DNA of 64,000 nt from Blastocystis sp. Blastoise (taxonomy: Eukaryota; Sar; Bigyra; Opalinata; Blastocystidae). Made by a program: the position numbers and the translations under genes. The stretch covers positions 957,001-1,021,000 of the forward strand of contig JBBPEB010000009.1 in the NCBI GenBank assembly GCA_039096225.1, in the 5' to 3' direction. The notes below the pieces were generated by a model. The model did not search any database, was not told the DNA's origin, and saw only the letters and a list, made by a program, of their open reading frames with translations. Of the stretch, positions 14,470 through 39,198 are shown piece by piece (the first letter of the stretch is position 1; every line of letters starts with the position of its first letter).

Positions 14470-16027
14470 TTATTGTGAATTTGAAGTATTATTGTTTGTA
14501 TCAATAACAATAGCATCATTATTTGGAATACTATGATTATCAGGTGTAGGTATGTTACTCATAGGTTCTGAAGGTGTATTGAGATTAATAGTATCATTTG
14601 AAATAATAGTTTCGTTAATAGCTAACTTATTCTCTTCTTTATTAGAAGTAGTAGATTCTTTGATTTCTTCTATTTTTTCATCTTGAGAAGAAGTTTCTTT
14701 TATTTGTTCAATCACTTTAGACGATACAGGAACAATCATTTGTTTACGAGCCTTCACCTAGAGGATAGTGTATACATAATAAGAGTATAGGAAATATAAC
14801 ATTAATAATATATATAGAATAAGTGATGAAAGTAATAAAAATAATAAAAATAATAATTAATGAAAAAAAAAAAAAAAAAAAAAAAAATTAACAAATAAAA
14901 TAAAAATAAAATAATAAAAAAAAATAATGAATAAATAAAATAAATAAAATAAACATAAAATATACTCTTTTTCTCCAGTCGACAAAGAAGTAGCTAGGAA
15001 TAGACCAACAAACAACAGAAGCAATAAACCCAATAATCATACTCCAAGCGATATCTAAATGAGCATATACATACAAACACGCAGTGACATAAACATATAT
15101 ATGACCACTATAGAAGATTTATATAAATAAAATAATATAAATAAAAAATATAAATAAAATAATATAAATAAAATAATATAAATAAAATAATATAAATAAA
15201 ATAATATAAATAATGTAAAAAAATATAAAATAAAAATACATAATAAAAACATAATAAAAACAAAATAAATAAAAACAAATAAAAAAAATAATAAAAACCT
15301 ACCTAGGTGTACCAATAATAAGTGGTGAGACAGCACCAGCAGTAACACTATCATCTTGAGCAATAGAAATAGTAACCATACTAATTAAGAACATAATAGG
15401 GAATCCACTAATTAAACCACCAATATCTGAAGGACCAAATGTTGATATCATTAAAGCACAAAAAATAACTATAGCTGTCATAGTACCTCTAAATAAATGC
15501 ATTTGAATAGAAGTCTTCTTTTTTCCTTTAGGTGTATCGATAGGAACCCAACAGAAGAAAACACCTTCAATAGCAACAAGGACTGTTAAAATAGGACTGA
15601 AAAAATAGACAGGAAATCCATTATTGACAACTACTTGTTGTAACCAAGTTAAGAAGAAACCTAATAACAACCAACAAGCAACACTTATAACAGAAACAAT
15701 AAATAATCTCCAACCTCTTTTCATACTTCGAGGCATTCTTGGAGGTAACCAAGCCCATAGGGGTAAGAAAATAAATGAACTACAACTAGCACCAAGAGGA
15801 AATCCAAAACATCCTGCAATTGCATCATATTCAGTTTTTGCTTCTGTAAGAAGGACATAAGATGCTGGTAAAATTGTAGAAGGGACTGTACCAAGAATCC
15901 CTCCAACTGCTCCACCAAATGCTTCAATACCAACACACACGGCAATAGCTACAATAAATGCAACACCACAAGAAAGACCAACTTTAAGCCAATTTATAGT
16001 GACTTCTACAGCCTCTTCAAATAACAT
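14470..16027 (-). CDS. Multi-span membrane protein, paralogue A of three
   Basis: Unrecognised transporter-like family. Exon 1 (16027-15300) encodes about seven hydrophobic segments. Two segments look like copies of one motif: FGGAVGGILGTVPSTILPAS near residue 40 and IGGLISGFPIMFLISMVTIS near residue 190. Each is followed by a second Gly/Ser/Pro loop (CFGFPLGASCS; GAVSPLIIGTPS). Between them lies a conserved cytosolic-looking loop, WVPIDTPKGKKKTS, then HLFRGT. After two introns, one with minisatellite AAATAATATAAAT and one with a 21-base poly(A), come AHLDIAWSMIIGFIASVVCWSIPSYFFVDWRKRV and a polar Ser/Thr/Asn tail ending NTSNSQ. Such inverted or tandem motif pairs with P-S loops are typical of secondary carriers (inference). 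The hAT element starts 129 bp upstream of its ATG. Paralogues lie at 35484-36999 and 37672-39198. Confidence 0.75.
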
Positions 16028-16147
16028 CGTTGTCTCTATTTTTATAAGATTAAGTAATAGAAATATAATTTTAATATATGAATATAAATCCGTTTTTATT
16101 TGGTGTTTTCCTAAGGAATGGCTACAAAATGTTGTCTGATTGAATGG

Positions 16148-16155
16148 TTGTCATT
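16148..16155. repeat. Left target-site duplication of the hAT element
   Basis: TTGTCATT directly precedes the CAGGG terminus and is identical to 32308-32315. Confidence 0.85.
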
Positions 16156-16222
16156 CAGGGTGTGCCAAAACTGCGCTTTAAGCGCAAAGTGCGCTTTTCG
16201 ATGTTGTTTTTGCGCTTAAATC
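16156..16222. repeat. hAT left terminus with subterminal AAGCGCA/TGCGCTT repeats
   Basis: Four copies of TGCGCTT or its complement AAGCGCA lie at 16172-16178, 16180-16186, 16190-16196 and 16211-16217. The first two form an inverted pair with a one-base centre. GC-rich repeats of this kind are the usual transposase-binding sites of hAT elements. Confidence 0.75.
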
Positions 16223-17420
16223 TTTTATTTCATTTTTCTTTTAATTTTTATAAATCTACATAGAATAAAACGTTTAATAATTTTTAGAGGATCGAGATAA
16301 GCTCAATAATGATGTTTTTGACATTTTACACGAGGTTTGTGTTTGTTGATGTAATTTGATTTGTTGTTGAATAAATAATAACCTTACACATATTATAATT
16401 AGAGAGCAAATTGAATTTTTTAGCATTTTTAGAATGTTAATCATGTAGTTATAATGATTGATTGTCTTTAAGTATTTAACAATTAGGAAAAAAGCGTGAT
16501 TATGTGTAGATCTTAATAATATAGTAGTAGTAGAATCATAATAGCAATACATGCTTCAAATTTTTACAAAACTTTGAATTCTTTTAAATTGGCTAAATAC
16601 TGATTATTAGTGGTCAAAAAATTTTCAAACTCAGCTCATCAAGACGCATTAATTTACACACTTTTCATGAAAAAAAGACCGGGTGACATAAAAAAGTAAT
16701 TCATTCATTGACTATTATACTATGACATGACAGTTTTTAACTTAAAACATATTATTTTGATATATAATGTATAAATGTTTTGAAATAAGTCATCTAAGAA
16801 GATTTTTGTGACACATGTTGTGACAGATACATGACTTAAAAGTTCATAAGTCATCAAATAACAACAAGTATGATTCCTATATTTGACTATTTGTGTTAAT
16901 TTGGGTGACAAATAAAAATTATTTTGTGACAAAAGTCAATTGCTTAAGATATTCTTTTGTATATTATTTTAAAGACTTTTATTTATGTTTATAATGAAAA
17001 ATAATGTCAATAAATACTAAAAAATATTATAAAAAATAATAATGTAATTAAAAAGTTTTTATTTTTATAAAATATCATGAAGTAGTCTTGTAGGGACTGT
17101 ACAGATACATCCTGACAAGTAATAAAAATTAAATAAACGAAAAGCATATTAAAATATTATTTTTCAAAAATCAAACAAAAAACAATACAATGAACAAAAG
17201 CTGGATTTGAAAAAACAATACGTCCAACAAAATGATTTTTAATAGCCTTATAAAATGGTTTTAAAATGTATTTTATATGTAGAATAAGTCACACAACACA
17301 TTTATAATATTTATATTATAAAATATATTGTTTTTATGTTTAAAAATAAAAAAATAAAAAAACGGTTAGTAGTCACTAGCTTTGCAATTATTATATGACT
17401 TGATGAAAAATATTATAAGG

Positions 17421-17490
17421 GAGTTGTTTGGTCAAATGGTCAGTGCGTATAAAATTTTTACATAGTGGACGGATCGAATCTTACGAGGAA
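17421..17490 (+). repeat. tRNA-like (SINE-like) sequence 1
   Basis: A Pol III A-box-like stretch TTGGTCAAATGGTCAGTGC (about 17428-17446) is followed about 30 bases later by a B-box-like GGATCGAATCT (17471-17481), then a T-run at 17493-17499. The T-stem pairs poorly, so this is a degenerate tRNA-derived repeat rather than a functional tRNA. Confidence 0.5.
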
Positions 17491-17785
17491 CTATTTTTTT
17501 AAACTTTTTCTTTTGACTGCTATTTACAATGATTTTATTTAAAATCAACTTTGTTTCATTTTTATTATCTGTAAACATTATTTACATCATTGATATCTGC
17601 TTTTTAGTTTAGAATCAACATATCAACAAACTTTTTTTTCAAAAAATAGTAATTATTGTTTAAAAACAATTCTAAGTATTTCTAGAATGTTATAAATGTA
17701 ATAAAAGAGCATAAATATAATATTTGAAGATATCAAATAATTTTAAACTTATTATATAGAACACATGAAAAAATAAAATTGAGAA

Positions 17786-17855
17786 ATCGGTTGGTATAGT
17801 TGACCAGCGCTGTAGCTATTATGGTAATTGTCGCTGGATCGAATCTCGCAAGAGG
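17786..17855 (+). repeat. tRNA-like (SINE-like) sequence 2
   Basis: TTGGTATAGTTGACCAGCGC (about 17791-17810) resembles a D-arm with A box, and GGATCGAATCT (17836-17846) resembles a B box in a T-arm where four of five stem pairs can form. T-rich sequence follows from 17857. It shares the B box and spacing with sequence 1, 365 bp upstream. No clear acceptor stem or anticodon. Confidence 0.5.
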
Positions 17856-19382
17856 CATTTTTATTTTTATTTCTTGGAAAAACATCTTTTTATGAAACTT
17901 GTTCTTTTATATATTTATTTTGATTATCTCTTGATACGATCATTTATTTTGGTTTAATTTAATTAACTTAGTTTATCAAGAGTATTCGCCTTGAGTATTT
18001 ATTTTAATTTTTATAATCTGCTTTACTTAATTACTTTCTTTCTTTAGGTATCAAGGCTTTTAGCTTTTAAACAACTCTTTATACTGTGAAATCAGGATCT
18101 ATAGCATTCCAGATGGTTCAAATGGATCAACAAATATTTTTTGTATATAATTCGTTTCTTCATTTGTAATATTTATTTGATTTATCTTTATTTTATAGTG
18201 CAGGATGATCAGTATTTTTCAAGAGTATTTATTGTGCGTTATCTATAAGGTTTATTTAGTATTTATATTAATTATATTATAATTGCTTTTTATCATTATT
18301 ATTTCATTGATTTATTTGTATATTAGTTTATTATAGTGATCGTTATTTTCTTATTTATATTTAAAAGGAATATTATTTCATTTTTGATAACAAATTATAT
18401 ATATAGATATACGAGGTCAATACTTTAATTAAGTGTGGCATTCTTTCTATGTTTAGAATTATTTTATGGTCCTTTAATGTATAAAAATATTGATGAGTAT
18501 ATATTTATTATTATATTTATTAGTATATTTATTATAGTATTTATGATATTTATGATTATGAAAATAATATATATATAGTTCAACTATAGAATTATTTCCA
18601 GTTGTTATCATTTATTATTTTATATATATATATATCAACAATTAGTGAACAATAGATAAGGAAGCTATTCAATTATTAAGCCAATTAAATGATAAACGAG
18701 ATTGTTTATATATGGAGAATGAAGTTTATTGGTCAAAAATTATTCATTATATATATATAAATATTTTTGAAAGAGATACTATTACGGATTCCTTACAACA
18801 ACAAGAATAAGTATATATATATATTATTATTATTATTATTATATAGTTATTTTCAATATTATCTGAATTGATTCCTATAAATTAAAATAATTCTATGATT
18901 TTAGCTACTTTTGCATGTATATATATATATATTTGATTATTATACTTTATTTATATTATCTATATATTAATACTATTTATATATATATGTATAGATATAT
19001 ATACATCATTATCTTCTGAGAGTCCTTACCTTTCATCCTCTCGCCTTCAGGCCCTTATCCCTACCCTCGCACCACTTCTCGCCTCCCCTTTACATACACA
19101 TCGTCTCCATGCACTTCGTATTCTAAAGAGCTTCCAACAACTTGATGTATATATATTATTTTATATAATAATAATATTAATAATAATAATAAATATATAT
19201 ATATATATAGTCGTCTTCAACCTATTGAAAGATCTACCTGTATATATATATCTTCATAATCATCATTATATATATATACATTCTTATAGTTACTTCTTAT
19301 AAGTCCCTCACTGACGCACTCCTCCATCCCTCAAAGAACATTAAAGCACGTTATAATTCCTATACTATTAATTGTATATCAA

Positions 19383-19426
<44 letters not shown>

Positions 19427-21229
19427 GCTGATTTATTAATTGTTATGTATTCACGGGAATATGGTCATGTATCTAATTTTTTTTTCTTATTTATTACCTC
19501 GTATCCCTCTAAATGAGTATAAAACAGTAGCTATCTATGGACAATATATATGTATATAATAGTATATATAAGTATATATAATAGTATATATAATACATGA
19601 ATAATATATATTCTGTGTATTTTCTGCTAATCTTCTTATTATATATGATCTATATATATATATATATGTATATAGAAATACTGGTTTATTGACTGTGAAA
19701 TTGGCGGGAAGTCTTGCTTTGATTCAATTCATCAATATTAAGCCACTTTTCAACAATATATATGCTCAATCAACTCTACAGAATATGTCCGATATACATA
19801 ATATATATATATATGTAGTTCTTATGTAACTAAAAATACATTAAATAAACTATATCAAAATGGAATAAAGACGAATTCTTATATATATAATCAGATACTA
19901 ACAATGGACATGATATTAAGTTTAATTGAACAATCTAAAGTCAGATGGTATATATATATATATATATATTCTTTTTTAATCTATTTATCAATATATATAT
20001 ATTAGGACTCTATCTGAAGACTTATATGCTTCTTTTCCCTGTCTTTATATACATATATACAATTACCCCCTATCTATACACTTATTGATACTATGCATCA
20101 ATTATACACAGATCCCCGCGGGGATCTGATGAGCAAAGAAAGTCAAGGCCGACTTCTTCTAGACAATCTTGATAAGTATATTATATGTTATATACTATTA
20201 TATATTATTATATCTTATTATTATTTATTATTATATACTATTATATTATAGGTATAAGAATAACAAAGATTACACTCAATTCTTTAACGATATTATAAGA
20301 ATAGTATATAACTATATATAACTATATATAACTATATTTATAACTATATATAACTATATATATAGGTGAGTGATGGTATTGCTCTTTATTCTCTACTCCG
20401 ATTGGGTCTCAATTCTACATATATACCTACTCTTATTGATCTGTATATATATAACTAATATATATATAACTATATATATAACTATATAGGTATTTACAAT
20501 TACCCTTTGATTTGATGATTTCCCGTGGGGTTGAGAATATTCATAGTCGTAATCTATTTGTAGATAGAATCAATGGAGAAGCTACTATGAAGTATATATA
20601 TATATGTATAGTATTTTATATAACCATATATATCTATTTTTTCTCACTATATATACCTATATATACTTTTATATATAGTGCCATTATTAATTATTTATCG
20701 TTCAAAGCACGTCCTATATCTGACAAAACTGTTCTTCGAATTCTAAAGCAAAATATCAAAGTAGATCGTCGTATGTGGCGCATACTGTGACATTCTCTTA
20801 TTTTTCTCTTTTTATACTCTATTATAATTACTTATTATTGTTATTCCACATATTATTATGCTTATTATTATATATATTCTAGCTATATATTCCTATATTT
20901 ATTCTAGCTATATATTCCCCTCTTTTCTAGTCATTTCTCCTTCTTACACTGGACATCCGTCAATACTTCACTTCCTCTTTCTCTCTCTTCTCATTCATTA
21001 TGATTAATAACAATGAACCTCTCGTGACTTCCTTGGCGGCAACTATCGACGCGGGAACCAAATATAAGAATGTATATCTATTACAAGAACAATTGAATAA
21101 AGATAATATACATGATTTATATGATAGTCCTGAATTCCTTAGATATCAAGTATATATATATAATATTATCTATTATTACTATATTTATTACTATACATAT
21201 TCTACATTTATTACTCTATATATATTACT

Positions 21230-21274
<45 letters not shown>

Positions 21275-21975
21275 TGTAGATATTCCATCATCTTCCCTCC
21301 TTCTTCTTCCCGCGGAATCCCTTAATGAACTGCTCTCCATAGTGATGACTACTTTCCTATCTCTTAATTCCCCGCGGGACATTCTCTTTGTCTTACAACA
21401 TTCTTCGATGATCCCTCTATTTATCCTTCTTTATATCTTGTAGAAGACACTGTTTAAGGTATATATATATATAAATTAGTTTGAATTATGATGTCATTCT
21501 CTCTTATTCTTTTAGTTTTATATATATATATATATATAATTTTCCTCCCCTTTACAGATTCTCCTGTTGTTCCACTTCGTTACTCGCTCTCCCTTCATCC
21601 CCGCCCTATATACAAAGACTTTACAAGTATTCTTAGATAGAGTTGGATTAGCGAGTAAAGACTCTAATTATGTATATATATATAATAATAATAGTATTAT
21701 TATTGTTTTTGTTTTTTTCTATTACTCTCTATATATCATTAAAAACATAATATTAATACATATATAATTATATTTCTCTATAGCACAAAACGTTACTCTC
21801 TTCGAACATTCTTCGTATCGACATACAGAGCGTCATTCGACCCATACATCATCATTTCCAATATAAAACGGATGACCATGATTGTACATATACCATGACT
21901 ATTAAGGCCGAATATGAATTTATGGAGAAACTAAAGAAGAGTCCAGATGATGAAACGGCACAACTTATTGTATAT

Positions 21976-22268
<293 letters not shown>

Positions 22269-22691
22269 ATAGGTATCTTTAACAGAAGAACGTATAAGAA
22301 ATGCTATAGAGAAAGCAGTTCAGATGCTATTAACGAAATCCTTACCTGAATGTTATCCTATGTGTTTAGTATATCATATATTTGGTCTTTATTATTTAAA
22401 ATGGAATCGTTTTTGGCAGAAGCTAACAGAATGTTGTGTAAGAATTGCGAGTTTTGATAATAAATTATATTGGAATTGTTTTTATGAAAAAGCATATCTT
22501 ATTAATGGTTATATAGATATAAATATATATGATCATATAGGATATAGTATATTATCTAAAGAAGAAAAGAGATATGGTATCGTCTATGGTTTAGAACGAT
22601 TACAAGATAGATATAAACATTATATTAAATATTCTACACTTACATTTGTATTGAAACAACGATTATCGATGGGAGAAGAACTACTTTATGG

Positions 22692-22803
<112 letters not shown>

Positions 22804-24566
22804 ATATATATATTATATAGTTATACAGATGTTAATACTTATTGGACGTCTTTATTCTCTTCTCTTACTGATGTAGCTACTTATATTCGTCCATATAATA
22901 AACAATTTATGGGATTCTTTATAGATTTCTTAAAGAAGAAATATTATGGTTATCGAATAATCTATGATGTTGAAGCTCGTGATGTGATGAAACCAATTCA
23001 TACTGAATTCGAAGAACTTCTAAAACAAAAGAATATTACTACTCCTACTATTATTCATAAAGAAGAAGAAGAAGGAAAAGAAGAAAATCAAGTAAATAAT
23101 GAATTAGAATATATGTATAATTATACGTTACGTCCACGTGATGCTGATGCTCGTCTGAAAGTCTTCTTAAAAATATTCAGTAATTGGCCTGGTATTCAAA
23201 GTATTTATTTAGCTGATTCTTTAAAGAATATATGTATATTATTATTAAATAAGAATGATTCTTCTTTACAGAAATTATGTGTTGAAGTATTATGTTGCTA
23301 TAGTAATTTACCTACTGTTCTATATAAGGAAAGTTTATTAGGATTATGTGATGAATTGAATTATCGTGATACTATGTTAGGATTATATATAGAGAAAGAT
23401 CAAGGAGTTATCAAAGTAGAGCATAGAGATCTTATTATACCTATTATAGAACGTATTTTATATGGTAGACTATTAGATAAGAAGATGAAATCGAAAACAC
23501 ATTATTATGGAAACTTGCTGCTATTTTAAATTATTTATCTATATTAGATTATGAAGAATTAAAGCCATTATTATTTATGATATTATGTTCATTTACAAAA
23601 GATTTATTTATACCTTCTGTTCAATCAGAAGAAGATGTAGCTATATTATTAACTCATATATCTGTAAAGAAAGTTCCTGATACTCGTAAATTAGGATTTT
23701 TGAATAGTTGTTATGATTTAATACGATATATGAGAGATCGTAGTAGTTCTTTTATTCATTATATATTAGCTGCTATAGGATGTAAATTAAAAGATAGTTA
23801 TGATAATAAAGAGAATTTAGAAGATTTATTAAAAGAAGATGAACAAATAGATACAAATGGAAATGATGATGATATTGAAGATATTGAAGATATTGAAGAT
23901 GAAGATGATAATAATAATGATAATAATGATAATGATAATAATAATAATAATATGAAAATTGAAAATGAATTATCTACAGATGCCACTACTATTGCTACTA
24001 CTTCTTCTACTACTTCTAAAGCAGATTCGAATAGAATTCGATGTAAGTTTATTCAACGTCGTATACGTGGTTTATGTATAAAGAGAATAGTTGAATGTAT
24101 AGGTTATTTTAGTAGTTATAATTATAAACAATGGAAATCATTATTATTTGATCCATTAACTCCTTTGTATGAAGTATTACATAATACTATATTAGGATTA
24201 AAGAAAACACCAGTATTATTAAATTACCTCATTTAATATCATTTTCTCCTTCTTTATATTATTTATATGATATTCAACCTTTATTATTACCTACTTTAGT
24301 GGAATGTTTATCATTAGGTATTGATTCTGGTAAACAATTAGGTGCTAATATTGTTAATGATATTATTGCTACTATTAATAATATATTAGGTATTAGAAGA
24401 AGAAATGGATAATTTTGAGAAATCAACAAAGAATGAAAATAGAGAAGAAACTGAAATGAAGAATAAGATGAGAAAAGAAATGAAAGAAACTGATAGTGAT
24501 GATGAAGATGAAATCGAAAAATTAAAAGAAAATATTAAAGAAAAAAAGAATAGAAAGGATCAACGA

Positions 24567-24667
<101 letters not shown>

Positions 24668-24890
24668 ATTTATTATTTTATTATTATAATCATTATTTTA
24701 TTTATTTTGGTTATTATTGCCATATTTATTACTATTATATATATAGAAGAATTATTAAATCGTATGTTGACTAGTAAGGTTATAGCTTATATTTCATCTC
24801 TTCTTGATTCTATTCTCTCTCATATTCAAAGCAGACTGAAACTTATACATAATTTTAGATCTGGTATTAGCGTTAGTATGCTGATATATA

Positions 24891-27800
24891 TATATATATA
24901 TGTATATATTTTTTATTGTTATTTTATTATTCTTTCATATATATATATACATATTAAATGAAACTGGGTTGAATATAGGTATCAAGAAGTACCTAAATGT
25001 GATTAAAAAGTTGAATAGTTTCTTTTCTTCTGTCTTTTGTATATTAATGCTTAAAGTAATTATTTCATTGCTTCGTTTAGTTTGAATATGTTTGATGGCT
25101 TATATCAAATAAATGATAGCTTTATTTGCTCATTTATAAAGACATTTTTTTGTATTTAGGTTAACTTTGTCAAAAATATTATGATTTATGGCCATGTATA
25201 CAAATAAGGTGAAAAGCCTTTCATTCAGTCTGATGACAAAACTCATGAGTATCATATTTTGTTACAAAAAACTTCCTTATGTGTTTGATAAATTCAGCAG
25301 AATTAAGCATGGCTGAAAAAGTGTCACAAAATTTGGTGGCAAGTGTCACCAAAGTCAGGAAAGGACTGACTATTTGATTATTTTTAAAACTTCAGTCATT
25401 CTTTAAAAATTTCAATGATAATTTCATTCTTTTGTTAAAGATTCAAATCAGAATAAGATTATTGCCTATAATATTTTTTCAAACTTGCTTTCTATCTGCT
25501 TTCTGAACTAATAATGGTTTATCATTAAGATTCATATTGGTTTTTGTTGCATTGTGAACTCCTCTTAAATACTAGTCAATATCTACTACATGATGATTTC
25601 CCATTGTTTGTTGATTGCTTTGTTACGTACTTGCTCGTTATGATCAGTGTTCAATACACATATCTTACAATGTGCTACGTGATGGATACTTATCAGTTAC
25701 TTATTCTTGGAATGATTACTTGCAATGTATAATTTTATGAATATTTACAGTTTGTTGCCTTCCATTTATTATTTACATCTGATTTGGTTACTCACCAAAC
25801 TTCCTTACTTCTCTTCTTGAATTAGTATACTCATTTTCTTTTTGTAACTTTGCGATTAATGAGATCTTTATTTATGTTGTTTGTATGTTTGATTTTATTC
25901 GACTAATGTGCTTTTGATTGCTTGTTCTACTTTATAAGTGCTAATTATTTTGTTTTTGTTTTTTATTTTTCTGATACTTCCTTTTTTCATACTGTATTAT
26001 AATGGTATTTATATATAACGATGACATTTTCTTATAGATTTACTTATTATGAATTTTCTTATTCTTATTCTAGTATTTAATAAATACTTAAACACTTCAT
26101 CTCTGCGATTAATACTTACTATGGTTACTAACATACATAAGTTTCTACTGAAGATAGTAGCAGATTAGTAACAATTGATGTTTATTTCTTTTCATCCTTA
26201 AATCCTTTTGTCTATATTACAATATTATCATGTACTCTTATTCTATCAAGTTTACTATTATAAGTTTTTGAATGTTTTAGTATCTTATTGTGTAATTCTT
26301 TAATATGCTATTATACAGGAAAGTATCTATATGATATTTCTTTGTTGTAGTTTTCTGTATAAAATTTTTGAATTTCTTTTTATTCTTTGTATATATTTTC
26401 ATCTTGGTTAATTATTCTTCAACTTCTCTTCATGTTATCGTTAGTCTACTATTATATATTGAATTTTTAGTTATAAACCTTATCTTATTTCCTTATCTTA
26501 TTTCATCTTTTGTTCTTTTAAGGTATTATAGCATTACATTAATTGTATTAGTTTTCTGGTTTTTCAGTCTCTTCCTATCTTCTTCGTATGGTATCTTTAT
26601 ATTTATTAGACTCTTCATTTCTTCTGGTGCTTTTCAATTATTATGTGATCATTCGTAATACTTCACCTGCATGTTCTTTTCCCTTTATTAAAGAGTTTCT
26701 AGATGTGCTATTTTTATATTACTTTTATATTATCCTTAGTTGATATTCCTTTTTCTCCTATGATAGAATTCTTTATGTTCTTATGTTATTCTAATAGTCG
26801 TTTCATATTTCTCTATTAAACATACTATGAGATTTAATGACGATTTTCTTTTCCTTTAATAATTACAAATTCCTCACTATTATATATTATTATATATCTT
26901 AGTTTTATTATTCTAACAGATTTATTTTTATATTTGTTTCTATAATTGAAAACATACTCAATTAATTTATTTTCATATTTCATTCAAATATACTCTTCAT
27001 ATACATATTCATATCCTTCATTTATGGTTTTCTTCGTTTTCTCATGTTCTATATATTATCCCATGGTCTACTTATTTTTGTGCCTATTTTTAATCCTATA
27101 CTTCCTCATTATCTCTATTTCTTTATCCACTTTTCTTTTATTTCTAGTGCTTCTATTGTGTATATTGTGTGCTCATTATTAGACTTATTCATTTTAATAC
27201 TGCTTCATCATTATCTCTCTTCATATTCTTTAATGCTCATGTTTATTGTATTTCCTATTTACACAGTTATTATTTCAGAAGCATTTTCCATTTCTTGTCT
27301 AAATAATATGGGTTTGAATATTTTTATTAGTCCTATTTCTTACTATCGTTTTTTATAATTCTTCTCGTTCGTTTCCTTTCTTTTTCTTTCCAACAATTTC
27401 TCTCTTGGCACTACTCATCATGGATTTTAGTAATCAAAGTTAGGATTTGTTCTCATTGTTGTATTACTATTATCTATATACCACAAAAGATATTTTTATT
27501 ATTTCTCTTCATTCTAAGGTTTTGCTCTTTTTGTTACTTAAACATATTTATATGGCTACTCTTATTTATTATTATTGTGTACATTCTCTTCTTCTTATTT
27601 AATTTTTTATAAAAGCCTAGTATCTACACCTTCTATTCCTTCTATTCTTTCTCATTTCTAATTACTCTCATTTTCCAAAAATGATATAATTATATAATAG
27701 GATCTATGTCTCCATATTTCTTTCGTACTGTTATTTAATAAAATACTATCTCTATTTACTTTAAACCATTTCAACTCCCTTTAACTTATTATCTATATAC

Positions 27801-29421
27801 ATCTTACATTCATGCTGATATGAATACTATAATACTATTTGTATTTCTTCTATTTTGTTGAATACGGTTGAGGTAGTTCTCGAATTGTTTATTTTCTAAA
27901 TTTATTTTCATTTCTATTACTTTAGATATTATATCTTCTTAAGTGCATATGTACATAATTAATATGCTTATATATATTTACACCTGCTTTTTCCGTTATC
28001 AGCCGTTACTTCATATTATTTATACAATGTCTAACTATTATATACAATTTACTCCGTTTGTTCTTTTACTCATGATGATATAATATAGAAATCAACTTCT
28101 TATTACTTCTTATGGTTTATTTATTGTATTTCTATTTATAGATTTATATATATTTTTATACGAATATTGTTCTCTCTTCATGTTATTGTCTTTAAAAATA
28201 TACTAAAAATAATTATTATCGTCTCTTCTACTCATTTATCACTGCCGATTATAAATTCAGTTGATATATGCATTCTTCCTTCTTCTTAACTTCAAATTTT
28301 ATTTACAAGTTTTTAGTTATCTTCTTTATGATCTACATATATAAATATATTCTCATTAAGTCTATGTCAATCTTTCCAATAATTTTTCTTCTGATAATCT
28401 TTCAAATGCTAACCTTTATATAATATCATGAATCTTAATCTAATACTTATTTCATGCTATTATAATATAAAATCCACATTACTTTCTATTATATCATATA
28501 TTCTAATACTCTTTCGGATATATATAATCCCTCATATGATACTTAATATAGATATAACACATCTTGCTCTTTCCTTTTGAATTCATGTATAAATATAAAA
28601 TTGTTGGTGTAAACGATTTAAGATTCCACTTTATATATATGTTTTGGAAAATAGTATATTCTTTAGGAACCAATTGTTATCACTCTCTTTGTGATATTTG
28701 ATTGATAAGTCAGGTAAATGATTTTAGTAGTTATTTGGTTCTTTCTATTGATACATTATGATTGAAAATATATTTTGCTATTTATTTATATATTTAATCT
28801 TCTTGATTAGATATACTATTTGATTTAAGAAGAGTATACTTTATAGTTGTATATTATACTTTTGATTGAATAAAGATTCTTATTAGTATTGGATATTGTT
28901 TTAAAGTATTATACTAGAGAGATTAGTATATATGAAATAATTACTTCTAAAATAATATTTATTTTTCATATAAGTAATAATATTTCTCAGTTATTCGTTT
29001 GATCTGAATATAATAGTACTTGAAAAAGAATATAATTAGAAAAATAATTGAAATATAGATAAAAATTATTAAGGAATAGTGATTCTAATTAAGAAACTAT
29101 ATACTATTGATATAATCAAATATATAAAGGAATATTCAATGTCATCTATTTATAATTATATTTAAAAGATAACAGTATATCTTCTTGAGTTAATTAAAAC
29201 AATACAAATTATAATGTAACAATAAAACATTATGGAATACAAATAGTTAATATAATGAAAACAATATAAATATATAAATATTAATAGTAAAAGAAATCAA
29301 TGTACTTTGTAGTATAAATACAGTAATTAAGTAGTTGGATTAGATTAGTGATTTTGTTGCTAGATGTTATCAATCGAGTTTCTTTTTCTTTAATTTATCT
29401 ATATATAATTAAGAATAGATT
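24891..29421. other. Pyrimidine-rich non-coding block inside the hAT element
   Basis: About 4.5 kb with no gene I can support. From about 25400 to 28600 the plus strand is strikingly T- and C-rich. Open frames here (for example 26368-26658 and 26946-27182) are hydrophobic by composition only. TA and AAT microsatellites are absent. TGTCAC motifs at 25322 and 25344 are the complement of the GTGACA cluster near the left end. Confidence 0.55.
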
Positions 29422-32104
29422 CTATATTATGTGAATTATGAATATAATACTTATAATATACATACGCTCTAAAACAGTAGTTATAAGTGATGAAGAATCA
29501 ATGATATCAGAAGTTAATCCAATTGTCATTTGGGTTGTTGGATTAATAGTGTTTCTGTATTTGTTTTTTATATACACGAGATGACTGAAACCGCTCTCAC
29601 AGAGATATGAAGTTGCAAAGGGAAGAAAACATTTCTTGGCTATATCATATAATAATGGAAAACGACTCTTATGGCTTATATAGAACTCATCTATTGGTAC
29701 GTTATTAAATTCTTCTCTACATGTTTTATCAGCAAGTAAACAGAAATACTCTTCTTTAACATGAAACTCCATTTTATTTTCGTCAGCTACTTTTGAAAAT
29801 GGATTAGTAATCCAATATAAAGAATGATCAATAAGATTAGTTGTTGGTGTATTTTTTGGTTTTTTTATGTTACTATTCGTTTTCTTCTGCTTTTTATTCT
29901 TTTGTACTTCTCCTTGATTTGTATTATTACTTATTTCATTTGGAATGATTGCCCCAAGAGTTATTATACAATTGATATTAGCCTGAATTATATTTATATT
30001 ACTAATGATTCCATTGTATTGTCCTTGAATACTACTATTAGGGAAATTATTAAGAACACCAGAAATACTACCTAAAGTGTATCCATATACTAAATATGGA
30101 AAGTCAATTCTAATCGTTACTTGAGTTTCTATTAATTGCTGAGTAACTATGTCAACATAGGTTATTAAGCCATTTACAACTCCATTTGGAGATACGCAAC
30201 CTTGTAATGATCCAAGAATATTAAATTGGTTTGATACTACTGATGTATTGTTATTAACATTACTATTCACTTCATGAGATATATTTGATGTATTATGTGT
30301 ATTTTCTTGGTCTATTAAATATTCATTAAGGTCTTGAAGATACGATTCATCACTACCAATATAATTTAGTATTTCTGGGAAATAATTCAGTAAATTACGT
30401 CGAAGAGTTATTAGATGATTTTTGATATAAAATATGATTGAATTAATATCAAGCTTGGTTGTAGATACATAATCCTTAAGTTTCGTAAATGATGAATAAT
30501 CGTTATTATTTATTAGTCTTTCTAATCTCAACGATAATTTTATAAATAAATCCTTCATAATGTCTATTAACCCAAATATATATCTATGCTGTCCTTGCAT
30601 TGATTTATTACAATCATAGAATAAACTGGTAACATCCTCAAGGTATAACATTGAAGCTATGAAGTTAGTATCAATAATGGTGTTATATAAGTCCTTCTTT
30701 TCTTTATCCTTTTTTATTACTAGTGTTATTCCATTTCTAAGTAAATTAAATCTTTTAATTGATGAATGGCATGAAAGCCATCTTGTAGGGCAATAAAGGA
30801 GAAGTTTATAACTTCTAATATTTTTTTCCTTTTTTTCTTCCTTCTTATCATTACTATAAACTTCATGAATATTATTATCTATATTATTATCTGTATCAGA
30901 TGTATCTAAAAGGGATTCAACTACTTTATTATATTCTATCTCTAAAGAAGATATATTATTAGGGGAATCAGGTATGTTATCTTGAGGAGAGAAGATAGAA
31001 GAGGTTAATGAATATTCATTATCAATATTGTAATTATTGGATTCGTCTTGTCTAACAGCAGACTTCTTTATATATGAAATTATCTCAACAGCACTTTTGA
31101 ATATATTAGTGAAGTATTTTGGTAAACAGTTTACACAGAGTTCTTCTCTATGAAGAAAACAGTGGATGAACATACAATTCTTATTCTTCTCTAGTACTCG
31201 TGTTTTGAAGGAGTTTTTGTCTCCATTCATATTCGAAGCACCGTCAAAAGTAGCTGATACGCAATTATTCCACAGAAGGTTATTATTATTAAAGAAATTA
31301 TCTACCATGTTAAATATATTATCACCTGTTTTGGAACTAATCTGAAAAATACTTAAAAATGATTCAGTAAACTTTTTATTATATTCGTATCTAGCATAAA
31401 CGAGTAAATAGGATTTCATTTCTATGTCAGTTGACTCGTCAAGCTGAATAGAAAATGATCCTGATTGTCTTATCCTATTTATTACTTCTTGTTGAATTGT
31501 CAAAGCAATTTCATCACTTTTTCTTTTGATACTGCTTGAGGATAACGGAAGATTAGAAAGGACTTTGACATTCTTTAACCTTTCATATTCTTCAATAATA
31601 GGTTTAACTAATTTTTCTCCAGTTCTGTAGCTGTATCCATTCTTTGAAATGGAGTAGGCGATGAAATATGAAAGCTTACTGGATAAATCTGAAAAGCTAA
31701 AGAGAGAATTTGAGTATTCTGTGTTTTCATTATGATCTTTTAAGAGTTCTTGAATGTCATCATATGTGTATTTGCTTAACCCATGTTTATTCTTGAAATG
31801 AGTGAAGAGTTTTGAGGCTTCATAACCTTTACACGTGAGAGTAGACTCACAGATTAAACAAAAATAGGAGTTTTTTGTTAATTTTTTAAATCCATAAACA
31901 ACTGGATTGGCATTATATCTTTTAACTCCTTCTTTTACTTCACTATAATATTTGGATTTAGGATTAATATCTGGTTTATTATTCGTTTCTTCTGTAATTA
32001 TGTCATCATCTTTTTTTTTTTCGTCTGTTGTAGACTTGTCAATCTATATATATATATATATATTACTATTAATATACTTGTAATTTTTTAAAGTACTGTT
32101 CCAT
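29422..32104 (-). CDS. hAT transposase (BED finger, ZBED5/SCAND3-like), apparently intact
   Basis: Cut-and-paste transposase of about 880 residues. Exon 1 (32104-32078, MEQYFKKLQ) joins exon 2 in phase at 32043 across a 34-nt GTATAT...TATAG intron; exon 2 is open to the TAG at 29422. N-terminal BED finger: FCLICESTLTCKGYEASKLF then THFKNKHG (about 31865-31785). Catalytic core: SIQLDESTD (first Asp, about 31455), ATFDGASNM (second Asp, about 31245), CPTRWLSCHSS (about 30800), and SYLCESGFSHL (Glu, about 29610) in the C-terminal dimerisation region. Compared with related hAT proteins it has an extra block of roughly 180 residues (about 30350-29850) between the NYFPEI and YWITNPF segments. It lies next to the element's right end and ends with TAG, unlike the host genes, which use TAA. 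Confidence 0.9.
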
Positions 32105-32250
32105 GTATTTAAACAATAAAAAAAGTTTATCTAATATAGAATGTTCTTTTTGGTTTAGCAAAACATTTTCCCTTATATTTTTGTTTTTCCCGTGTTTTCA
32201 TCACTTAAAATAACTATGAAAATCACGGTAATAAAAAAGTAACTTTGTTA

Positions 32251-32307
32251 TTTAAGCGCAAAAATTTTGGTCCTTTCGCTTAACGAGTAACTACGTGGTG
32301 ACCCCTG
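32251..32307. repeat. hAT right terminus with subterminal AAGCGCA repeat
   Basis: AAGCGCA lies at 32254-32260 and a degenerate CGCTTAACG at 32278-32286, followed by the terminal ACCCCTG. This mirrors the left terminus but with fewer intact repeats. Confidence 0.75.
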
Positions 32308-32315
32308 TTGTCATT
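32308..32315. repeat. Right target-site duplication of the hAT element
   Basis: TTGTCATT directly follows the ACCCCTG terminus and is identical to 16148-16155. Confidence 0.85.
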
Positions 32316-37671: not shown

Positions 37672-39198
37672 ATGATAGTATTAATTAATTGGTTGAAAGT
37701 ATCTTTAACTTCTGTTGTAGCCTTTGTTGTTGCTATTACTGTTTGTCTTCTCATTGAAGTTTTTGGTGGTGTCGTAGGAGGAATTCTTGGATCAATTCCA
37801 TCTACTGTTGTTCCTGGTTCTTATGTCATTCTCACAGATGCTGCAGATGCTGAACAAGCTATTTCTGGAATGTTTGCTTTTCCATTAGGTATTTTTTAAA
37901 TATTTCATACTGTTTACATTATAATGAATTCTTGAGAAAGCGGTTTTTAAATGTTATACATATATAAATCTATTTCAAAATAGTAATTTAGTATAATTTC
38001 TCTAGGTTCTGCTTGTACTTCATGCTTATTTTTACCTGTTTGGAAGATTTTACCTAAATATATACCTCGTACTATTCCTAAATGGATTCGATTAGTAATT
38101 TTAAGTGTTGTTAGTACTCTCATTTGGGCAATAGGTGGTGTTTTTCTTGTTTGGATTCAAAATTTATTACCTTCAATTGGAGTACCTATTTATGTATTTA
38201 GTCCTATTATCGTATTAATTACTATTATTGTTGGAGTCATATTTTGTTGGCATCCTGCTCCTGCTCCTAAAGGAAAGAATAAGGTCAGTATTTGGGTTCA
38301 TTTAACAAGAGGAATAGTTGTCGCTATTTTCATCTTTTTATCATCTATTATTTCAGCTTATGGTGCTAGTGATTATGCTGGTCTTTTAACTTCTTTCCCT
38401 GCTATTACTATTGTTACTATGCTTTCTGTTTCTATTTCTCAAGATGAATCTGTCACGTGCGGAGCTATTGGCCCTCTTATGCTTGGATATGTCTCGTATG
38501 TTTATTATTATGTTTTTTTAATTCATTATTATATTTATTATTATATTTATTGTTATATTTATTATATTTTATTATGTTATTTTTTTATTTATTTATTATT
38601 AATATTTATTTATTTATTATTAATATTTTTCTATTTCTTTCTTTCAATACGTATCTTACATTAATAATATTACTATTATTATTTTTTATATCTATTCTCT
38701 ATATACTAATTCCTTTATAGAACATGTATATATGCTTACGCTTCTTGCTTATTATTTGTATTCACTTCTCTTGGCATTTGGTGGTCTATGGTAATTGCCT
38801 TCTTTTTCGCAGTTATTATCTATTCTATTCCTTTATACTTCTTTATGCAATGGAGACAACGAGTATTTATTATATATATTATTATTATTCTATTGAATAG
38901 AATATTATTTATTATATATATGTTTTATATTATTTTATACAAATAATATACTATCTATTCTTTATATATTATTGCATACAAATAAAATAAAATCTATATA
39001 TAGGTATGTAGTTCTTCTTGTTGCCATATAGAAACTGATATAGAATTAAAAGGTACTATCTCTCCTGTTCCTATATCTATAAGTGATAATAAAGATACTA
39101 CGAATGAACATTCTCTTAGTCCAGATACTAATAAGAATATAGATAATAATAATAATAATGAAGTACCTAGTGTTACTGTTAAAGCTAAAGATTTATAA
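37672..39198 (+). CDS. Multi-span membrane protein, paralogue C of three
   Basis: Same family. The chosen ATG gives MIVLINWLKVSLTSVVAFVV, matching the NWLKVGL start of paralogue A; the longer upstream frame is not conserved. First motif FGGVVGGILGSIPSTVVPGS (about 37764), then, after an intron, GSACTSCLFLPVWKILPKYI (about 38005). Conserved loop PAPAPKGKNKVS then HLTRGI (about 38248-38310). Second motif YAGLLTSFPAITIVTMLSVSISQDESVTCGAIGPLMLG (about 38375-38490). Exon 3 (about 38720-38863) ends FMQWRQR, and the last exon (from 39004) starts with a Cys cluster, VCSSSCCHIE, possibly a lipidation site (inference), before a Ser/Asp/Asn-rich tail. Confidence 0.75.

Follow-up and report, generated by a model that had tools for sequence, protein, structure and literature searches.

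A recently multiplied 16-kb hAT element of Blastocystis that contains a second hAT-like element and pieces of UTP20

hAT elements are usually a few kb long, and longer ones usually move poorly. The 64-kb stretch of Blastocystis sp. Blastoise DNA analysed here (the window) holds a unit of 16,152 bp at positions 16156-32307 that is bounded by hAT-type ends and encodes a hAT transposase, which raises the question of whether so long a unit is one mobile element and how it came to be so large. A first-pass annotation had read this unit, here called element A, as a single recent hAT element that had grown to carry non-transposase cargo, including a fragment of a host gene; the opposite CAGGG termini, the shared subterminal word, the 8-bp flanking duplication and the hAT reading frame on which it relied all lie where it had placed them (Table 1). 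From searches of the window and of the whole genome (33.3 Mb, 34 contigs), we consider it very likely that an autonomous hAT element, A, and a gene-capturing hAT-like element with UTP20, here called B, were fused, moved as a unit of ~16.2 kb, and recently multiplied to 18 copies.

The termini of A form an imperfect inverted repeat that starts with CAGGG at each end and is identical at 7 of 11 bases. As the annotation had proposed, the ends of the element were used to look for other copies in the genome: 18 places match the left 245 bp and 19 match the right 200 bp, all at 100% identity, which excludes chance. Pairing of the left and right end coordinates gave 18 full-length copies with a spacing of 16,099-22,709 bp, 16 of which measure 16,099-16,222 bp, while the copies at C31:218719 and C16:1139961 are 18,385 bp and 22,709 bp long. 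All 18 share both end points, rather than stopping at different internal points, and 16 of the 18 are flanked by perfect 8-bp target duplications, which bears out the annotation's claim of one hAT element of ~16 kb. The 16 duplications all differ in sequence and fit the pattern nTnnnnAn: 12 have T at position 2, and 11 have A at position 7.

The joined flanks of the 18 copies were then used as queries for empty sites (40 of 44 candidates scored; 4 of the 36 own flanks absent from the list). For the copy at C13:748006-764224, an uninterrupted empty site was found at 8 other places, at 100% identity over the full 220 bp. These exact empty sites lie in a repeat and indicate that the unit inserts whole and precisely. 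The other 17 sites returned, among the matches listed, only their own flanks, so that an exact empty site was recovered for one site in 18. The repeat family hit by the C13 copy, with members at C34:543077, C34:499861, C14:1138027, C8:1849893, C4:2002833, C4:1024881, C4:350483 and C3:1152181 that are identical to the query over 222 bp, is possibly another young mobile element. That the two ends stem from separate small elements with no relation to each other is ruled out by the 18 pairs and by the exact empty sites.

We next consider the age of the copies. Ten were aligned, namely the window copy and nine of ten fetched copies, with the rearranged C31:218719 copy excluded. The alignment has 17 variable columns free of gaps and 48 indels; 7 of the former and 11 of the latter fall outside simple repeats. 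Over 14,488 positions outside simple repeats, the pairwise difference was 0.0147% on average and 0.035% at most, figures that gene conversion or assembly polishing may have lowered. A stretch of 63 bp at 18703, present in the nine other aligned copies, is missing from the window copy. The near-identity of the copies indicates that A multiplied very recently to 18 copies, in line with the recent insertion and intact transposase frame that had been annotated.

In 14 of the 18 copies, that frame runs without a break through at least residues 8-873, and the lone right end at C22 also keeps it. Over 98% of the query, its product matches the NCBI protein WA158_007455, a "hypothetical protein" of Blastocystis sp. 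Blastoise, at 100% identity, and a homologue search returned nine proteins in all. In an alignment of six of the nine (P0005, P0006 and P0007 excluded), D205, D270, C298 and H301 are invariant in all six and E819 is conserved in five; these are putative catalytic and motif residues of hAT enzymes. A search of solved structures with the profile of this alignment gave no match at E up to 1, Hermes included. The hexamer GCGCTT/AAGCGC occurs at positions 18, 25, 36, 57 and 16099 of A and only twice more in the remaining 47,848 bp of the window, and its first two occurrences make up a quasi-palindrome that adjoins the left terminus; these subterminal repeats are putative transposase-binding sites. 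The features that place A among hAT elements are thus the 8-bp duplication, the nTnnnnAn target, the inverted CAGGG ends with subterminal repeats, and a dimerisation domain of marginal score. We infer that this transposase is the active enzyme that moves the copies. Another hAT transposase family, 40% identical to that of A, is present at C2:16223, C23:490048 and C33:278071; its three copies score identically, and so this family is perhaps also recent.

How, then, did A become so long? The annotation was right that non-transposase cargo is present, but the element did not simply grow: ~8.75 kb of it is a second hAT-like element, B. In a search for relatives of B (40 of 93 candidates scored), 22 places outside A were listed, of which 14 start exactly at 16616 and 8 further in. 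B also exists separately: a free copy at L062:93-8361 (C13:1163042-1171310) is 8.3 kb long, with its own termini CAGCGACTTCC and CAGTGCCTTCCC and its own duplication ATTATAGT. The left end of this copy was found at 8 places with 97-100% identity, and the terminus CAGCGACTTCC could be read at three of these, while its first ~120 bp are absent from the A copies. By their end positions, at least three further B copies of 8.4 kb exist (C13:1008k, C17:776k and C23:345k). The B segment is present in 18 of 18 A copies and has lost its left end there, indicating that B is locked in and probably unable to leave alone. A candidate older A+B composite at C15:592-612 kb was not borne out: the 1,601 bp in which its right end should lie hold no match to A, and the B-like left end at C15:612 kb has a different terminus.

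The cargo of the free copy, L062, differs from that of B within A and is apparently an intron-rich gene on the minus strand. A part of ~3 kb is 93-95% identical to 8 places outside the B copies found, and a ninth matches in two pieces at 95-97% (40 of 829 candidates scored); where checked, these relatives lie within ~110 kb of a contig end. Together they have the look of a multicopy gene family of the host. No open frame of more than 240 amino acids is present in L062, with spliced genes not modelled and no transposase-directed search made, and the open frames of its cargo matched two Pfam families, both below the cut-off. B-type ends enclose UTP20 in some copies and, in L062, a portion of a multicopy sequence. 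The region L062:6815-8250 recurs at a minimum of 22 further places with 71-76% identity, an older repeat family within B.

UTP20 is an essential gene. The host gene, with its C-terminal domain, is located at C34, and the two UTP20 pieces in the element match it in exons and introns alike with 85-96% DNA identity, confirming that a host-gene fragment is carried. Exon divergence is 2.2-2.4% in the two largest blocks and 0.75-6.5% in three smaller ones, ~150 times the mean difference among A copies, which indicates that the capture long preceded the burst. In the largest exon, the codons of element and host differ synonymously in 19 cases and non-synonymously in 18; these differences mix changes in the host gene with changes in the copy and by themselves do not demonstrate lost constraint. 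It is the frameshifts and the missing ends, not the codon ratio, that mark the element copy, truncated at both ends, as a pseudogene; it is a decayed passenger and not useful cargo. That it could be the only or a working copy of UTP20 is ruled out by the host gene at C34 together with the same frameshifts and missing ends. The UTP20_N domain was found in 17 of the 18 A copies (the C31:218719 copy lacks it owing to a deletion). Outside A, it was found in the host gene and within two B copies, at C15:700809 and C28:236395. The 2.7-kb segment between the two pieces (40 of 1,284 candidates scored in its search) resembles by eye parts of two other genes, and its hand-joined exons matched no Pfam family. 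The UTP20 introns, in the host gene (L061) and in the element (18496-24930), consist largely of TA and TAA/TTA microsatellites, with a 291-bp run in the element, unlike the introns of ~32 nt given for Blastocystis ST7 in the available part of the ST7 genome paper.

Table 1. Features of element A and its flanks (window coordinates)
Feature	Position	Strand	Basis or remark
Left target-site duplication TTGTCATT	16148-16155	.	Sequence, comparison of both flanks
Left terminus of A, CAGGGTGTGCC	16156-16166	+	Identical in 18/18 full copies
Left part belonging to A	16156-16615	+	Relatives of B start only at 16616
Quasi-palindrome TGCGCTTTAAGCGCA, likely paired transposase-binding subterminal repeats	16172-16186	.	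Binding inferred from Hermes
Subterminal 15-mer TTTTTGCGCTTAAAT, left end of A	16207-16221	+	
B, a hAT-like element lying within A; lacks its left ~120 bp, keeps its right terminus ..GGAAAGGACTG	16616-~25368	+	
Captured UTP20 piece 1, exons and introns, last ~80 bp microsatellite	18496-19281	+	Alignment to host gene
Segment absent at the matching place of host UTP20 (L061), 2.7 kb	19282-22075	+	9 non-A places at 80-93%
Captured UTP20 piece 2 including UTP20_N domain, frameshifted	22076-24930	+	Alignment to host gene
Right end region common to other B elements	25020-25373	+	
A-specific region, no open frame >130 amino acids	25374-29421	.	71-72% relative of 26622-29400 at C15:595-598 kb
hAT transposase, open frame of 873 amino acids	29422-32043	-	NCBI protein WA158_007455, 876 amino acids
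Subterminal 15-mer TTTTTGCGCTTAAAT, right end of A	32250-32264	-	
Right terminus of A, CAGGGGTCACC	32297-32307	-	Sequence
Right target-site duplication TTGTCATT	32308-32315	.	Sequence, comparison of both flanks

We propose the following course of events, in the likely order of capture, fusion and burst. B would have captured intron-containing genomic DNA including UTP20, plus other DNA. The B element with UTP20 may then have joined the cut-and-paste hAT element A by nested insertion, recombination or fusion, and loss of the left end of B would have fixed it within A. The transposase of A, with its gene near the right end, would bind the outer CAGGG termini and the GCGCTT subterminal repeats, and the whole ~16.2 kb would move together to 8-bp nTnnnnAn targets, many of which lie in CCAAT-rich DNA. 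The fusion of 16.2 kb would then have multiplied recently to 18 copies. For the junction at 16616, nested insertion followed by deletion may account for what is seen, and recombination or gap-repair fusion is equally possible.

Several observations weigh against this account. One right end, at C22:56001-56200, is unpaired. Two of the 18 copies lack a clean duplication: the C31:218719 copy has the duplication TCTGCTAG with three additional bases ahead of the left end, and the C16:443718 copy has none. Frameshifts or stops interrupt the transposase in four copies (C8, C15:1313k, C26 and C31:420k). The Pfam domain Dimer_Tnp_hAT (PF05699) scores barely above its cut-off in the A transposase (22.0 against 21.4 bits, E 0.00014) and DUF4371 scores below its own, while the precomputed domains of WA158_007455 are DUF4371 (PF14291), PF27073 and PF27046, without PF05699; the DDE catalytic triad is a putative one, assigned from the alignment. 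Furthermore, no A copy without B was found in the genome, so that the pre-fusion A is not seen, and the 16616 junction shows no duplication matching the right end of B.

Given these points, other explanations were weighed. The copies might be passengers of the transposase of another hAT family, such as the 34-40% relatives at C2, C23, C28 and C33, with the A transposase idle. The genome does hold related uninterrupted transposase frames, and 16 further places carry a weaker A-like left end, but these are just 72-86% identical, in matches that span no more than 155 bp of the query, and probably mark other hAT families. Since the A frame is also open in 14 of 18 copies, although in copies so young an open frame is no proof of selection, we regard such passenger movement as unlikely. 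Spread by segmental or ectopic duplication or by gene conversion, instead of transposition, would fit the near-identity of the A copies and the copy at C16:443718 that lacks a duplication; it is very hard to reconcile with homology that ends at CAGGG/CCCTG, with a distinct 8-bp duplication for each of 16 copies and with the exact empty sites of one, and we give it hardly any credence, although gene conversion may still contribute to the identity of the copies despite the 16 distinct duplications.

It is also conceivable that A itself captured UTP20 and that the B elements are later A derivatives with altered ends, since 16616-18496, the 2.7-kb segment and UTP20 are common to A and some B copies. 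However, B has at 8 places its own left end that is not found in A, two of these places (C15:700809 and C28:236395) hold UTP20_N, and six of the 8 are ~84% identical to the B part of A, against a difference of ~0.015% among the A copies; we therefore think this origin improbable. The fusion of A with a B element that already carried UTP20 remains the reading that we prefer.

Insertion-bearing copies and the insertion sites were also inspected. The copies at C16:1139961-1162669 and C22:56001-67024 are both interrupted, at the position that corresponds to window 27904, by an insert of the same length (~6.49 kb), and they differ in their right flanks, which may reflect movement of the 22.7-kb form as well. 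The C31:218719 copy has a 4.1-kb insert (L026:2121-6247) at window 29052, in which the sole open frame of at least 80 amino acids has 84. In the 5,040 bp made up of the 140 bp to the left and right of each of the 18 sites, CCAAT/ATTGG is found 28 times, with 15 of the 18 sites having it, compared with a mean of 7.0 and a maximum of 17 in 2,000 random draws from the remainder of the window, a background with many introns and not a matched intergenic control. At the 11 sites with longer flanks, its density is 4.85 per kb in the nearest 150 bp and declines with distance through 3.33 and 0.93 to 0.68 per kb. The window copy lies upstream of an opposite-strand gene, 128 bp from the presumed start codon of that gene at 16027. 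The CCAAT excess and the window site are compatible with insertion near promoters, and may reflect a promoter preference. Two paralogous membrane-protein genes (15299-16150 and 37987-38664, on opposite strands, 46% identical over 162 amino acids) flank the element, and an Rfam search of the whole window gave no matches.

Large cargo-bearing hATs and hAT capture of gene fragments are already known, and A is therefore no new category. As described in the available part of its report, ToxhAT of wheat-pathogenic fungi is a 14-kb cargo-bearing hAT with a working cargo gene, nested in a larger element (PMC9594970). A is likewise of hAT type, of similar size and a carrier of non-transposase DNA; unlike ToxhAT, its recognised cargo is a broken copy of a housekeeping gene, and it is a fusion of two hAT-like elements, present in 18 near-identical copies in a stramenopile host. 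Pack-TYPE elements, including plant Pack-hATs, hold host gene fragments between DNA transposon ends and are non-autonomous by definition, according to the excerpts available (PMC8903248). B resembles them in its gene fragments between transposon ends, whereas A has an open transposase frame in most copies. Pack-hATs are also much smaller.

Hermes of the house fly, in the accessible portion of its description, uses 8-bp nTnnnnAn targets and has paired quasi-palindromic left subterminal repeats and an unequal layout of its ends (PMC10368747). A shares with it the target pattern, the left-end quasi-palindromic subterminal repeats adjoining the terminus and the unequal repeats at the two ends, but differs in the sequences of termini and motifs. 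In maize Ac/Ds and composite Ds, nested or composite hAT units can move whole and are mostly single alleles, whereas the composite in A has itself multiplied. Other giant eukaryotic transposons, the Polintons, Helitrons, Teratorn and Terminons, are similar to A in size and captured DNA and differ in their enzymes, as far as the consulted sections of a review describe them, in which the word 'hAT' does not occur (PMC6431247). Among the papers listed by literature searches on Blastocystis transposons and hATs, no described element of this kind came up, and the available part of the ST7 genome paper holds a single 'transpos' mention, in repeat masking. What is unusual in A is its autonomy at 16 kb, its origin as a composite of two hAT-type elements, its very recent burst and its Blastocystis host.

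A broader reading, which we offer tentatively as possible rather than probable, is that Blastocystis harbours a hAT lineage without a size bar, which captures intron-bearing DNA, fuses by nesting and end loss, and multiplies as promoter-aimed units of 16 to 23 kb, so that fusion would be a normal route to giant transposons. In A, the form that has succeeded is an autonomous composite of 16 kb, seen shortly after its burst, while empty sites exist and transposase frames are open. It thereby becomes possible to test how long a hAT element can be and still transpose, and how gene capture leads on to a giant autonomous element. The UTP20 case further illustrates how intron-containing fragments of an essential gene become scattered over a protist genome, where they can mislead gene annotation and estimates of copy number in Blastocystis.

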